IMG/VR virus record: IMGVR_UViG_3300020202_000041
Location: 1-42,625 of that record
Length of the DNA: 42,625 nt
Reading direction: 5' to 3' (one strand)
Source of the DNA: a virus
The notes beneath the pieces were generated by a model, which worked only from the letters and a program-made list of their open reading frames with translations, searched no databases and was not told the origin of the DNA. Every line of letters starts with the position of its first letter. Position 1 is the stretch's first letter. Below are positions 2,549 through 6,720 of the stretch, in pieces. The translations under genes were made by a program, and so were the position numbers.

Positions 2549-3568
2549 TTAGAGATCGATTGAGTCTTCCGATCGCGACCTGAAGTAGGCGCGTATTTGG
2601 TCCCTGAGTCTGATTTGGCGATCATCCCAGGTCTCAAGCTTCAAGAGGCCCTGCGAGTCGCGCGTAAGATCCAGCATCGGATCAAACGAGTTGTCGCGCA
2701 GGATCTTCCAACGATCCGTGTACCCGCGATCGCGCTTCTTCCCGTGCCAGAAGTGATAGAGCGAGCCGGGCACATAGCCGACATCCCGCTTGATCCAGCG
2801 CTCGGCCCGGACTTCCCACTGCTTGAGTGCATGGCGATACTCCTGGTTCAGATGCTCGAAGCTCTGTTCCATGCAGTTCACGAGCCCCAAGGCCATGTGG
2901 CGATCGCCTGCACCGAGAACGGCAAAGTCGATCAGTGGTCCGCCCATAGGGCCTGACATGTTGTCGAGCGCTTCTCTGGTCGCGGCCCAGGCATAGCCGG
3001 GGTGTCCGTGCTCCATGTAGTAGGCGTTCTCCCAGAAGCCTCCCTTGATCGGTTTCACGCAGCCGCTCTCGATGTACTTCGACATGAACGACTCCATGGG
3101 CTTGCCAAGGACATTGCCGACGGGGTCGAGATCAACGGCCGTCTTGAACATCTGGACTACATGGTAGTGCTGAAGCTGCTGCACGGTCTCTTCAAGCCAC
3201 AGCCTGACAGATCCGGTCATGGGCATCACGTCGGCATCGATCCACGCCAGGTACTTCCAGTCAGGAAAGATCTGGGATGCGTAGTTGATCCCAATATTGA
3301 TCATGTTCTCTTTGTGCCAAAGCTCATCGATCGATCGGACCTGGACATGCGCTGGGTCGTTGGCAGAGGTCACTTCAAACGGCCGCTCGCCAAAGGCCTG
3401 CTCAACCGTGATGAGGGTTGCGCCTGCTTGGCTCATGGCCTCGGCAAAACGCCGATAGAGTTCATAGCGAGTCCGATACCGCACAGGGTTTGAGATCACG
3501 GTGACAACGACGAGCTTCTGAATCTGGTTGGTCGCGATCGGCGTGGAAGTTGGCTGAAAGTACGGCAT
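2549..3568 (-). CDS. Glycosyltransferase-like protein (GT-A fold, DxD motif)
   Basis: This 339-residue protein looks like a GT-A-type glycosyltransferase, which moves a sugar from a nucleotide-sugar donor to an acceptor. It has a beta-strand LVVVTVISNP (19-28), a segment DELWHKENMINIGI (81-94) typical of the nucleotide-binding core, and a metal-binding IDADVMPM with DAD at 111-113. I prefer ATG at 3568: GAGGTG lies 5 bases upstream and the ATG overlaps the stop of the dehydrogenase-like gene by one base; GTG at 3571 is the alternative. Together with that gene it forms a two-gene sugar cassette inside the terminase operon. Donor and acceptor are unknown; virion decoration or host surface modification are both possible. 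Confidence 0.75.
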   Translation of the reverse strand: MPYFQPTSTPIATNQIQKLVVVTVISNPVRYRTRYELYRRFAEAMSQAGATLITVEQAFGERPFEVTSANDPAHVQVRSIDELWHKENMINIGINYASQIFPDWKYLAWIDADVMPMTGSVRLWLEETVQQLQHYHVVQMFKTAVDLDPVGNVLGKPMESFMSKYIESGCVKPIKGGFWENAYYMEHGHPGYAWAATREALDNMSGPMGGPLIDFAVLGAGDRHMALGLVNCMEQSFEHLNQEYRHALKQWEVRAERWIKRDVGYVPGSLYHFWHGKKRDRGYTDRWKILRDNSFDPMLDLTRDSQGLLKLETWDDRQIRLRDQIRAYFRSRSEDSIDL

Positions 3569-4365
3569 CACATCACCTCAGGTCTGCGTCTGCGGTTGCC
3601 AAAGACTGACGCCTCAATGGCCTCGACCTGAAGCCCTTGTTGAACGAAGGCCCAATTCAGAAAGGCTTGCGTGTCTTTCGGGAAGCACATGCCCCCGTAT
3701 CCAGCCTGTCCGTCATGCCCAGGGGTCGACGTGTGCCCGTAGCCAATGCCGTTCATGGCAAGGGCTGCAAAGCGCACCTTGTCGTAGGGAATGCCCACGT
3801 GCTCACAGATCTCTCGGATCTCATTGCAATAGGTGACCTTCAAGGCGAGAAACACGTTGTGCATGTATTTCGCCATCTCGGTGATCCGCGCATCCTTCAG
3901 GATCCGCACACCCGAGAAGCCAGCCTCGAAATAGATCTCACCGATCTCGATTGCCGCCTCTTCGCATCCGCCGATCAAGATCGCGGGCTGCTCCATAAAA
4001 TCCTCGTATGGGCGCGAGGCTGTGAGAAACTCCGGGTTATGGACGACTTTTCGAAAGCCATACTTCGTAGCCAGCTCTTGAGTTGTACCTGGGAGCACCG
4101 TGCTTTTGATGCAGATCACGCCCTCAAACTTCTCCGCTTGCAGGCGAAGAAAGGTCTTGTGAAGCGCTGTCAGGTCTTGCTTTCCGTCCTTATCGGTCGG
4201 AGTCGGAAGACACAGAAAGAGCGCGTCCGACTTCCAGACCTGAGGCGTATCCGGGTATTCGCTACTGTTCTGATCAAACCCTAGGACTCTCATCCCGCGG
4301 TTCCTGAATCCTCTGAGGACAGCGCCACCCACGACGCCGACTCCGATCACACCGATTGATCTCAT
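3568..4365 (-). CDS. UDP-glucose/GDP-mannose dehydrogenase-like protein lacking the C-terminal domain
   Basis: The first 231 residues match the nucleotide-sugar dehydrogenase family, which oxidises UDP-sugars to uronic acids with NAD. Visible are the Rossmann GVGVVG (8-13), PTPT (54-57), STVLPGTT (88-95), NPEFLTA (110-116), EMAKYMHN with the catalytic Lys/Asn pair (K166, N170) and the active-site loop GYGGMCFPKD with Cys227. The protein stops at residue 265, whereas family members run to about 400 and carry a C-terminal UDP/NAD-binding domain. The catalytic residues are intact, so either this is a minimal form or a decayed enzyme. The start overlaps the LuxR-like gene stop (4 bases) and the stop overlaps the glycosyltransferase start. 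Confidence 0.85.
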   Translation of the reverse strand: MRSIGVIGVGVVGGAVLRGFRNRGMRVLGFDQNSSEYPDTPQVWKSDALFLCLPTPTDKDGKQDLTALHKTFLRLQAEKFEGVICIKSTVLPGTTQELATKYGFRKVVHNPEFLTASRPYEDFMEQPAILIGGCEEAAIEIGEIYFEAGFSGVRILKDARITEMAKYMHNVFLALKVTYCNEIREICEHVGIPYDKVRFAALAMNGIGYGHTSTPGHDGQAGYGGMCFPKDTQAFLNWAFVQQGLQVEAIEASVFGNRRRRPEVM

Positions 4366-4631
4366 CCTTGATCAGCCTTTCCGATGGCCAGGATCACGAT
4401 GCTCGTCATGACCTGGTGTCTTGAGGCGATGCCTGTCTTCCTGTAGAGGCGGTTGATCTGGTTCTTCACCGTTTTAAGCGTGACACCGAGGTCGACTGAG
4501 ATTTGCCGATTGGTGAGCCCCTGTCGGATCAAGGCCACGATTCTTTCCTCTGTGGGAGAGAGGCGAAAACCCAGCGGCTTCGGGCCCGGTGGTCTCCGTG
4601 CGCGCGCCGCCGAATCTGCTCCTGTCGCCAT
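4362..4631 (-). CDS. Stand-alone LuxR/GerE-type HTH regulator (89 aa)
   Basis: Residues about 22-80 form a LuxR/GerE DNA-binding domain: LSPTEERIVALIRQGLTNRQ, then the recognition-helix region LGVTLKTVKNQINRLYRKTG. There is no receiver or ligand-binding domain. It is preceded by a basic, proline-rich N-terminus. It is the first gene of the terminase operon, divergent from a plus-strand gene at 4732, so control of this operon or of the shared intergenic region is a reasonable inference. No clear Shine-Dalgarno sequence precedes ATG 4631. A second LuxR-type protein (5154-5405) is encoded nearby. Confidence 0.85.
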   Translation of the reverse strand: MATGADSAARARRPPGPKPLGFRLSPTEERIVALIRQGLTNRQISVDLGVTLKTVKNQINRLYRKTGIASRHQVMTSIVILAIGKADQG

Positions 4632-4731
4632 GTACAGAGGCTAGGGGCTCAGTTCGTTTGCGTTCTATGTGAATTGCATTCAAATTGTCTTTGCATTGAA
4701 AATTCGTTCACAACTCTGTTTGAATGGGCTC
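4632..4731. promoter_or_regulatory. Divergent promoter/operator region with repeated TTGCATT motifs
   Basis: This 100-base spacer between the leftward LuxR-like gene and the rightward 77-residue gene is markedly AT-richer than its flanks. It contains two direct copies of TTGCATTSAAA (4674-4684 and 4691-4701) 17 bases apart, and an inverted ATTCAAA/TTTGAAT pair (4678-4684 and 4719-4725). The spacing is close to 1.5-2 helical turns, as expected for a dimeric regulator. I could not define convincing -35/-10 boxes for either direction. Confidence 0.5.
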
Positions 4732-4965
4732 ATGCGAATCACTTCACTTGAAGCTCTGAAGAGACCGGAGTCGATCACGGATCGGCACTTCATTCCCGAT
4801 AGACCGTCACAGGTCGAGCGCTACCAGCGCACGCAGCAACGGCTCAAAGAACGAGGCGTGTCGCTTCATGAGCTGGCCAGGAAGGCCATCGACGAGATGC
4901 TCAATCAAGTCGAGGCATTGGAAGAGAAGGAAACGTCATGTGCTGGGCTACTGAAGGCCCGCTGA
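4732..4965 (+). CDS. Small helical protein of unknown function (77 aa), plus strand
   Basis: I take the start as ATG 4732, because the longer frame runs through the AT-rich regulatory spacer. The 77 residues are charged and mostly helical (SLHELARKAIDEMLNQVEAL), with an RxxQxxxKER stretch before it. The shape resembles small DNA-binding or antitoxin-like proteins, but no family is recognised. It is one of very few plus-strand genes, divergent from the LuxR-like gene and convergent with the 69-residue gene, which it overlaps by 18 bases. No strong ribosome-binding site is seen. Confidence 0.55.
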   Translation: MRITSLEALKRPESITDRHFIPDRPSQVERYQRTQQRLKERGVSLHELARKAIDEMLNQVEALEEKETSCAGLLKAR

Positions 4966-5157
4966 TCCGTCTGAGCAGTTGACGATGTAGGCATCTTCCC
5001 GATCCAGGATGAGCGCGAGCACTTCTTGAGCTTCCTGCTGGTCGGCGGTGAGGGTCTCGGGAGCAGCGTTGAGATCAAAGTCCTGACTGCACTCGATCTC
5101 AACTGACGTGACGCCCTCGTATATGTCGACAATGATCCGGTATCTCTCGGGCTTCAT
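4948..5157 (-). CDS. Unknown small acidic protein (69 aa)
   Basis: The 69-residue product begins MKPERYRIIVDIYEGVTSVE and is strongly acidic in its second half. The start suggests a beta-hairpin. No family is recognised. Its ATG overlaps the stop of the LuxR-like gene upstream (ATGA at 5154-5157), which supports the start and links it to the replication-side operon. Its 3' end overlaps the convergent gene ending at 4965, so this is the last gene of the 12450-4948 transcript. Confidence 0.7.
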   Translation of the reverse strand: MKPERYRIIVDIYEGVTSVEIECSQDFDLNAAPETLTADQQEAQEVLALILDREDAYIVNCSDGSAGLQ

Positions 5158-5405
5158 GTGCCGAGCCCGCGCGGAAGCTCCAGAACCTCGGGGTCACGAC
5201 GGTTCATCATCGAGAGCCGGGCCCTCAGCTCTTCCCTAGATCTGACTGCGTACTTCTCAAACACGCGTCTCAACGAGTGCGTGACGGCGGGCTTTGAGAC
5301 CCCAAGCTCGTCTGCAATCTCCTGATTGTCCCAGCCGCGAAGGTAGAGCATCACGATCTTGGCCTGCCCTTCCGTAAGTTGGGTTCCGGATGACGGTCTT
5401 CCCAT
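5154..5405 (-). CDS. Stand-alone LuxR/GerE-type HTH regulator (83 aa)
   Basis: Residues about 9-66 form a LuxR-type HTH: LTEGQAKIVMLYLRGWDNQE followed by the recognition helix LGVSKPAVTHSLRRVFEKYA. It has the same layout as the 89-residue protein at 4362-4631 but is clearly divergent in sequence, and it likewise lacks a sensor domain. GAGG lies about 8 bases before ATG 5405, inside the end of the upstream gene. It probably regulates phage transcription; targets are unknown. Confidence 0.85.
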   Translation of the reverse strand: MGRPSSGTQLTEGQAKIVMLYLRGWDNQEIADELGVSKPAVTHSLRRVFEKYAVRSREELRARLSMMNRRDPEVLELPRGLGT

Positions 5406-5408
5406 GCT

Positions 5409-5642
5409 TCAAACCTCGACGTCTTTTCTTTCTGTGATCCAGGCCTTCGGGATTGCAATGTATTGGCTTGCGGAATTGCCCACTTCGTCAAGATTCAACG
5501 CGACGATAAGGCGCTCATCGTTTTCGTGAATGAAGAACCCGCAGGTGGTGACCTCGTGGAGCCCGTGGTTCATGACAGCGCCGAGATCCTCCCAGGCGTC
5601 GCACGACGTTGCGTCATGCCAGGTGACTTTGATGATCTTCAT
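5409..5642 (-). CDS. Conserved-looking small phage protein (77 aa)
   Basis: The 77-residue protein begins MKIIKVTWHDATSCDAWEDL and continues with FFIHENDERLIVALNLDE and IPKAWITERKDV. This pattern is familiar from small phage proteins of unknown function that read as a compact beta-rich fold. ATG 5642 overlaps the stop of the 43-codon gene upstream (ATGA). It is followed after 3 bases by the LuxR-like gene. No function can be assigned. Confidence 0.78.
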   Translation of the reverse strand: MKIIKVTWHDATSCDAWEDLGAVMNHGLHEVTTCGFFIHENDERLIVALNLDEVGNSASQYIAIPKAWITERKDVEV

Positions 5643-5770
5643 GCTGCCCTCGTAATGGTACCCGGCCAGGTTTCGGAAGATCCGATGTGAACCAAGCTAT
5701 GGCCCACGCGCTCATCGGGCGCGGCGAAGATCTTCGATTGAAACCTGACCGGGCGGAGTTTGGTATTCAT
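5639..5770 (-). CDS. 43-residue unknown protein
   Basis: I choose ATG 5770, giving 43 residues beginning MNTKLRPVRFQSKIFAAP, because this start overlaps the stop of the phosphoesterase gene (ATGA) and its own stop overlaps the start of the next gene (ATGA). A longer frame in the same phase runs inside the phosphoesterase gene and is not supported. The peptide is basic with no membrane segment. Function unknown. Confidence 0.6.
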   Translation of the reverse strand: MNTKLRPVRFQSKIFAAPDERVGHSLVHIGSSETWPGTITRAA

Positions 5771-6720
5771 CCTATGATCACCCTTGGCCCGTGCTCGTCG
5801 ACGACGCCAAAGCTTTGCACCCAGTCGACCGTCTTGGTGGGCGTGTAGCTCAAACCCTTTGCCTGCGGATCCCCCGCATAGCCTGTGTTCAGCTCCCATA
5901 TGGCCTGGCCCCGAACGGTGCGGTAGACAACGCCTGGTCTGTGCGTATGCGATGAGATTGAGTTCTGAAGGTTGTAGTCGCGATGGTCACCAAGGCGCGA
6001 GCGGAAGCCGTGGTGAACGACAATCGAGCCGAAGAATAGTTCTTGGCGAGGGTCGTGGTTGGTCTCCACCCCCTCAAACGTAAAGAGATCTCGGAGCTTG
6101 TCGGCAATCCAATCCTCGGCAGCCGGATAGGCTTCAAGGATCCGCTTCATGGGACGCACGTCGTGGTTGCCTAGGCCCTGGTAGCACTTTGCCTTAGGGG
6201 CCGCCTTCTGCACCTCGCGCCAGAACTCTTCGTTCAGCTTTCTGGCCAAGGCCTGCTCTTCCCTGGGCGTGAACTGGTTGTGAGACCGCGGGAACTTCGC
6301 ATGCGAGTACATGTCCCAGGCATCGCCATTGAGAACCACATGCTCTGGCTGATGTGCCTGGAGATACCGGTAGAACTTATCAATCACGCGCTGACAGTGG
6401 AACGGCCAGTGGATGTCGGAAATGACAGCCATCGTTGGCCACGGAGCCGCGGGTGGAACCGCGACGGGCTCATACTTCTCAAGATGCTGGTGGATGTCGC
6501 GCTTGAAGACGTCGTTTGAGATCTTGACCCGGCTCTCGGGCTTGGGCTCAAGTCCTGCTGCCTGAACTAGCGTCGTGTAGGACCCGAAGTGTTTCTCTAC
6601 GTGGTATCTGGCATTTCGAACGCGATTGAAGAACTCTGCTTTCGTCGGAGTTTGGCCAAGCTCGATTGCGAGGTCTTTGAGAGCAGCAATTAGAGCATGT
6701 TGGTCAACGGCACCCGACAT
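5767..6720 (-). CDS. Calcineurin-like metallophosphoesterase with N-terminal homing-endonuclease-associated repeat
   Basis: Residues about 97-317 carry the metallophosphoesterase motifs in order: SDIHWP (101-106), NGDAWD (131-136), GLGNHD (182-187), VVHHG (234-238) and SSHTHRPG (256-263). These bind two metal ions and hydrolyse phosphoesters. Residues about 8-58 look like a homing-endonuclease-associated repeat (LAIELGQTPTKAEF ... FGSYTTLVQAAGL), a DNA-binding module. The fusion suggests a DNA-acting phosphatase, nuclease or repair enzyme. It sits in the replication-side operon downstream of a zinc-ribbon gene. Substrate is not determinable from sequence. Confidence 0.88.
   Translation of the reverse strand: MSGAVDQHALIAALKDLAIELGQTPTKAEFFNRVRNARYHVEKHFGSYTTLVQAAGLEPKPESRVKISNDVFKRDIHQHLEKYEPVAVPPAAPWPTMAVISDIHWPFHCQRVIDKFYRYLQAHQPEHVVLNGDAWDMYSHAKFPRSHNQFTPREEQALARKLNEEFWREVQKAAPKAKCYQGLGNHDVRPMKRILEAYPAAEDWIADKLRDLFTFEGVETNHDPRQELFFGSIVVHHGFRSRLGDHRDYNLQNSISSHTHRPGVVYRTVRGQAIWELNTGYAGDPQAKGLSYTPTKTVDWVQSFGVVDEHGPRVIIG

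Follow-up and report, generated by a model that had tools for sequence, protein, structure and literature searches.

Two genes resembling those of sugar-converting enzymes stand in the terminase gene run of a viral genome (IMG/VR record IMGVR_UViG_3300020202_000041; 42,625 nucleotides, the whole of which is the window referred to below), raising the question of what a phage might make with them and where it might place the product. We consider the chances about even that the pair is a working two-enzyme module for a uronic-acid-type sugar, acting on an acceptor that the phage itself makes. The window begins and ends with the same 127 bases, so the genome is probably complete. Its gene content, which includes an integrase, a major head protein, a head-tail adaptor, a tail protein and a 2098-aa phrog_9880 protein, points to a temperate podovirus-like phage. 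Nearly all of the noteworthy genes are on the minus strand, where we also observed a metallophosphoesterase with an N-terminal homing-endonuclease-associated repeat (PF18780) at 5767-6720.

Read on the minus strand from position 4631 downwards, the run begins with an 89-aa LuxR/GerE-type helix-turn-helix gene (4362-4631; PF00196, 1.2e-10). It is followed by a compact UDP-glucose-dehydrogenase-type enzyme of 265 aa lacking the C-terminal UDP-binding domain (UGD; 3568-4365) and by a 340-aa DxD glycosyltransferase of GT-A fold (GT; 2549-3571). Next come p120 (2174-2536), with no assigned function but conserved 3' of the GT at several loci; p71 (1959-2174), a small predicted protein without a family match in Pfam and PHROG profile searches; TerS (1457-1918; PF03592 3e-29, phrog_51 3e-40); and TerL (27-1460; phrog_2 3e-26). 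Overlaps of 4 nt join LuxR to UGD, UGD to GT (the GTG/ATG start of the GT gene overlapping the UGD stop) and TerS to TerL, and the remaining gaps are at most 40 nt, so the run looks like one transcription unit. The position of the pair within this packaging run suggests that it may be expressed late. The GC contents of the UGD and GT genes (0.56 and 0.57) equal that of the genome (0.575). Promoter consensus matches occurred in the window only at chance level; a 98-aa ORF on the plus strand (4669-4965) diverges from the LuxR gene, and the terminase run may have its promoters in the gap between the two. A sequence-only reading of this locus had placed a coupled pair between a LuxR-type regulator and terS. 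The regulator is real and adjoins the UGD gene, and the coupling is borne out by the overlap, but p120 and p71 separate the GT from TerS, and the interval given for the pair, 2549-4631, also takes in the LuxR gene.

The window UGD matches PF03721 (2e-19) and PF00984 (1e-17) above cut-off, while the same Pfam scan gave no match to PF03720, the C-terminal domain. Its AlphaFold model (pLDDT 94.1) finds UGDs as its best PDB folds, with TM-scores over the query of 0.80-0.86 for nearly all of the top 50. With the UDP-glucose 6-dehydrogenase/nucleotide-sugar dehydrogenase family (PF03721, PF00984 and PF03720; PDB 3gg2, 3vtf and 1dli) it shares the Rossmann and central helical domains and the Thr/Glu/Lys/Asn/Cys/Asp catalytic set, but it lacks PF03720, has an NAD domain about 35 aa shorter, and carries Gly in place of the Arg of the RIG motif. 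A profile scan returned 552 viral relatives, of which the best 80, together with three found earlier, gave the 83 loci studied here. ORF lengths in these 83 homologues span only 260-321 aa, PF03721 and PF00984 were present in all 48 relatives scanned and PF03720 in none, and T89, E112, K166, N170, C227, K230 and D231, residues of catalytic type, are invariant in 84 of 84 compact UGDs. The compact form therefore represents an old, ancestral family and not a broken gene; random truncation or decay was rejected on the same evidence. Thus the earlier description of an intact catalytic Cys, Lys and Asn (C227, K166 and N170) and an absent C-terminal domain was correct, with the absence being a trait of the family. 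Judged by sequence, the window protein is not a canonical UGD but belongs to a compact family of UGD-like enzymes.

Two features bear on the substrate. Arg206 is kept in 82 of the 84 compact UGDs and is replaced by Gly only in the window protein and in that of a second viral contig, L063. We take this residue to be the RIG-motif Arg, Arg260 of human UGDH, which reaches into the active site of the neighboring subunit; its replacement may mark a changed substrate in these two enzymes. In known UGDs the UDP part is held by the C-terminal domain, and as this domain is missing, specificity for NDP-sugars is no more than putative in the compact form. The name "UDP-binding domain" is in use for it (PMC13036090).

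The window GT gave nothing above cut-off in Pfam, PHROG and NCBIfam profile searches, although a Pfam scan of its relatives found weak PF00535 matches in 6 of 36. Its AlphaFold model (pLDDT 91.5) gave 78 matches in PDB at E<=0.001; those listed first are nearly all GT-A transferases, with beta-1,4-GalT, GtrB and chondroitin synthase at E about 1e-5. Matches in BFVD comprise two close uncharacterized viral proteins and many viral glycosyltransferases. Fold and DxD agree with GT7 beta-1,4-galactosyltransferase and with the GT2-type GtrB and chondroitin synthase, and by eye a conserved GxGDxHM motif and a C-terminal His pair resemble those of GT7; however, identities are mostly 6-15%, TM-scores about 0.3-0.5, no family model applies, and the C-terminal motifs HGxKxxRxYxxR and RxED are the protein's own. 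Both Asp of the DxD (D112-A-D114) are invariant in 102 of 102 sequences, as are D223, R282, Y284 and R287, and the His pair and the R-E-D residues nearly so. Structure prediction of each protein alone, proposed in the sequence-only reading as a check, thus returned a UGD and a GT-A fold, and the pair is present and intact; neither of the outcomes it had named as counter-evidence, broken active sites in both proteins or randomly truncated relatives, was found. The invariance of catalytic residues in 84 UGDs and of the DxD in 102 GTs argues that selection maintains activity.

This GT family is large, with at least 306 viral and 85 bacterial-genome stretches. Bacterial copies occur mainly in Acidobacteria, Acetobacteraceae and Rhizobiales, and distantly in Flavobacterium; gene neighborhoods are highly varied, and many bacterial copies have non-phage surroundings. 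A scan for UGDs beside bacterial copies gave one weak match (L257). By eye, the distant Flavobacterium relatives L266, L268 and L269 adjoin genes like those of peptide-exporting ABC transporters, which suggests a peptide-glycosylating role there. One relative (L042) lies on a contig with a neighbor that, by eye, resembles a eukaryotic giant virus gene, and a Yasminevirus protein is a close structural match to the GT model in BFVD; it seems that the family extends beyond phages into giant viruses. Of 92 viral loci with the GT, roughly 14 have TerL close by, which on a rough estimate about equals random placement, so we rejected a terminase-side position as a signal of the family; such positions may be chance placements. 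The earlier suggestion that the packaging-operon location is unusual was not supported, since a GT near TerL is not unique to the window and recurs in the family.

Gene neighborhoods of compact UGDs offer a wider view of what these enzymes may serve, although the 83 loci are the most window-like ones and partly near-duplicates, so that the following counts are not of independent events. A glycosyltransferase-like gene was found in the fetched stretch of 55 of the 83 and FolE in 51, many loci adding QueE, a TGT-motif gene and a phosphoribosyltransferase. In L064, L067 and L068, the UGD accompanies NeuB, a cytidylyltransferase, DegT, GLF and epimerases, and these sugar-nucleotide genes argue for sugar substrates. 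Seven compact UGDs stand shortly before UvsX in T4-like contigs, and four adjoin a T4-type DNA alpha-glucosyltransferase (PF11440, 5e-90 in L090) and a C5-methylase-like gene. In these four (L090, at 2819-5993, L092, L121 and L128) the UGD lies between the two, with a thymidylate-synthase-like gene and a dCMP deaminase nearby, making them candidate operons for uronic-acid or pentose hypermodification of DNA. L045-L047, L118 and their relatives have 7-deazaguanine operons that include a DSGG[YF]Q-motif protein, called DpdA-like only from this motif, seen by eye, and its QueE/FolE neighbors (PDB, Pfam, PHROGs and NCBIfam gave nothing for it), and a GT-B-like protein that had no profile match but has relatives that public phage records label as glycosyltransferases. 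Relatives also occur near QueE in Pseudomonas PA5oct-type jumbo phages (PP408249). The phage-borne UDP-glucose dehydrogenases of phrog_9148 and the compact forms of Campylobacter phage CP20 and Microbacterium phage Honeyfin are comparable; the latter two, at about 256-260 aa, are too short for a C-terminal domain, with CP20's adjoining QueE and Honeyfin's directly following a GT with a 4-nt overlap. Genes for a GT and a UGD are among the features given as common to Honeyfin's Microbacterium phage cluster (PMC12614000); in Microbacterium EC phages the GT is gp84 and the compact UGD gp85. The window UGD is nevertheless distant from all of these, and its partner belongs to a different GT family. 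The context of compact UGDs reads as sugar chemistry that works together with a glycosyltransferase and often serves DNA.

It is possible, though on the whole unlikely, that the window pair modifies the phage DNA, placing on an altered base a uronic acid that it makes or a pentose obtained from this acid. Besides the FolE, QueE, TGT-motif, alpha-glucosyltransferase and UvsX neighbors of compact UGDs, the placement of window-type GTs in T4-like contigs favors this: in six they lie between DNA polymerase and UvsX and in a seventh directly before the polymerase, close to UvsX/gp41 (L012, L027, L043, L153, L155, L161 and L168), near the place of the DNA beta-glucosyltransferase gene in T4. Phage SP-15 offers an experimental precedent, as its hypermodification cluster has a UGD and its DNA carries glucuronate (PMC5977210). 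The sugar is present on SP-15 DNA as phosphoglucuronate, and a phage UGD and GT supply glucuronate for a phage component. However, the SP-15 UGD, at about 436 aa, is full length, and uridylyltransferase and hydroxymethyl-dU synthesis, both lacking in the window, are part of its cluster. PF00303 had no match in the T4-like contigs with the GT, which may be fragments, and a tie of the GT to a hydroxymethylase or C5 methylase was rejected (PF00303 in 2 and PF00145 in 1 of 48 records). The window was searched for genes whose products could provide an acceptor base: a hydroxymethylase of thymidylate-synthase type, a C5 methylase, a PF13640 oxygenase, and FolE, QueE or DpdA-like homologues. None was found, and this lowers the case for DNA in this phage.

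The pair itself proved rare. A search for other phages with it, as the sequence-only reading had proposed, returned a single one, the 37.9-kb viral contig L063, in which a UGD (50% identity), a GT (42%), a p120-like gene and TerL follow in the same order as in the window, after genes for a C5 methylase and a TerS-like protein; a LuxR-type gene is not conserved beside the pair there. Among the loci examined the UGD-GT-TerL order recurs nowhere else, and the partner gene was absent from all other GT or UGD loci, including 43 GT-bearing records that were checked over their whole length. No new pair turned up among the matches of scans run with the L063 proteins, the new UGD matches not having been searched for a GT. 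A fixed cassette spread among phages was rejected accordingly. In a tree, the L063 GT falls in a different clade from the window GT, which groups with those of L002-L004 (support 1.0); these phages keep GT-p120-TerL but have no UGD. Including these closest GTs, the UGD is absent around about 90 other GT genes. A p120 homologue follows the GT in L002, L003, L004, L063 and L143, and at no other of the 92 viral GT loci. The pair, rare as it is, thus arose or persisted on two GT backgrounds; from its gene surroundings, the window-type GT is an enzyme that works without a UGD elsewhere.

With each gene usually found without the other, the two might be independent accessory genes sharing a slot, the GT using a host sugar and the UGD, lacking its UDP-binding domain, serving another purpose, possibly on a non-nucleotide substrate. 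We find this doubtful, since the genes overlap by 4 nt, L063 has them in the same order with a GT from a different clade, and compact UGDs are repeatedly paired with unrelated GTs. Least probable is a change of the host surface, in which a temperate phage would alter lipopolysaccharide, capsule or another glycan (lysogenic conversion or superinfection exclusion): the integrase, the GT relatives in bacterial genomes, many outside phage surroundings, and the frequent role of UDP-GlcA as a precursor of surface sugars speak for it, but no flippase- or GtrA/B/C-like neighbor was recognized near the pair, which is embedded in the packaging run and is not a separate moron with its own recognizable promoter. 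The UGD of Campylobacter phage IBB_35, for which a role at the surface has been proposed (PMC3322345), counts in the same direction; the earlier suggestion of altered host surface sugars nonetheless found no specific support here.

In the two-enzyme module that we favor, the compact UGD would turn a hexose into a uronic acid by NAD-dependent oxidation at the C6 hydroxyl through a cysteine thiohemiacetal, the most likely substrate being UDP-glucose or an NDP-hexose related to it, and the GT-A enzyme would move this acidic sugar, or one derived from it, onto a phage-made acceptor late in infection. The folds are intact, the catalytic and DxD residues invariant, the frames coupled and the pair recurrent, as computation demonstrates; to this extent the earlier proposal that the pair could make and transfer a uronic acid is partly supported, product and acceptor being putative. 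Our guess at the acceptor slightly favors a virion protein, as no tested base-modification gene lies in the window, with DNA second and host surface glycans third. A passage in PMC11256854, citing other work, mentions capsid glycans on mycobacteriophages, a precedent for virion decoration. Counting against the module are the missing UDP-holding domain, owing to which the enzyme may act on something other than a UDP-sugar, the Gly at position 206 in the window and L063 proteins, and the usual occurrence of the GT without a UGD. A bolder proposal, which we put forward as a long shot, is that compact UGDs form a distinct, unrecognized phage family for acidic-sugar hypermodification, oxidizing a sugar already on, or held by, the partner GT or the acceptor (a DNA base or virion protein), so that no UDP-binding domain would be needed; the window and L063 pairs would then be a terminase-linked branch that decorates genome or capsid around packaging.

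Compact UGDs were already annotated as UDP-glucose dehydrogenases in single phages, and a GT/UGD pair was known in Microbacterium phages. In the open-licence literature we saw nothing that describes the absence of the C-terminal domain as a trait of the family, links compact UGDs to DNA-modification operons, or covers the window GT-A family. The sugars that phages put on their DNA and virions bear on their escape from restriction and from immune recognition, and two large families of viral enzymes whose active sites are conserved can be linked with such decoration. One or the other, the compact UGD or the GT-A enzyme, is present in hundreds of viral genomes, and with cultured phages available for UGD relatives, among them Microbacterium and Campylobacter phages, the question can be taken to the bench.
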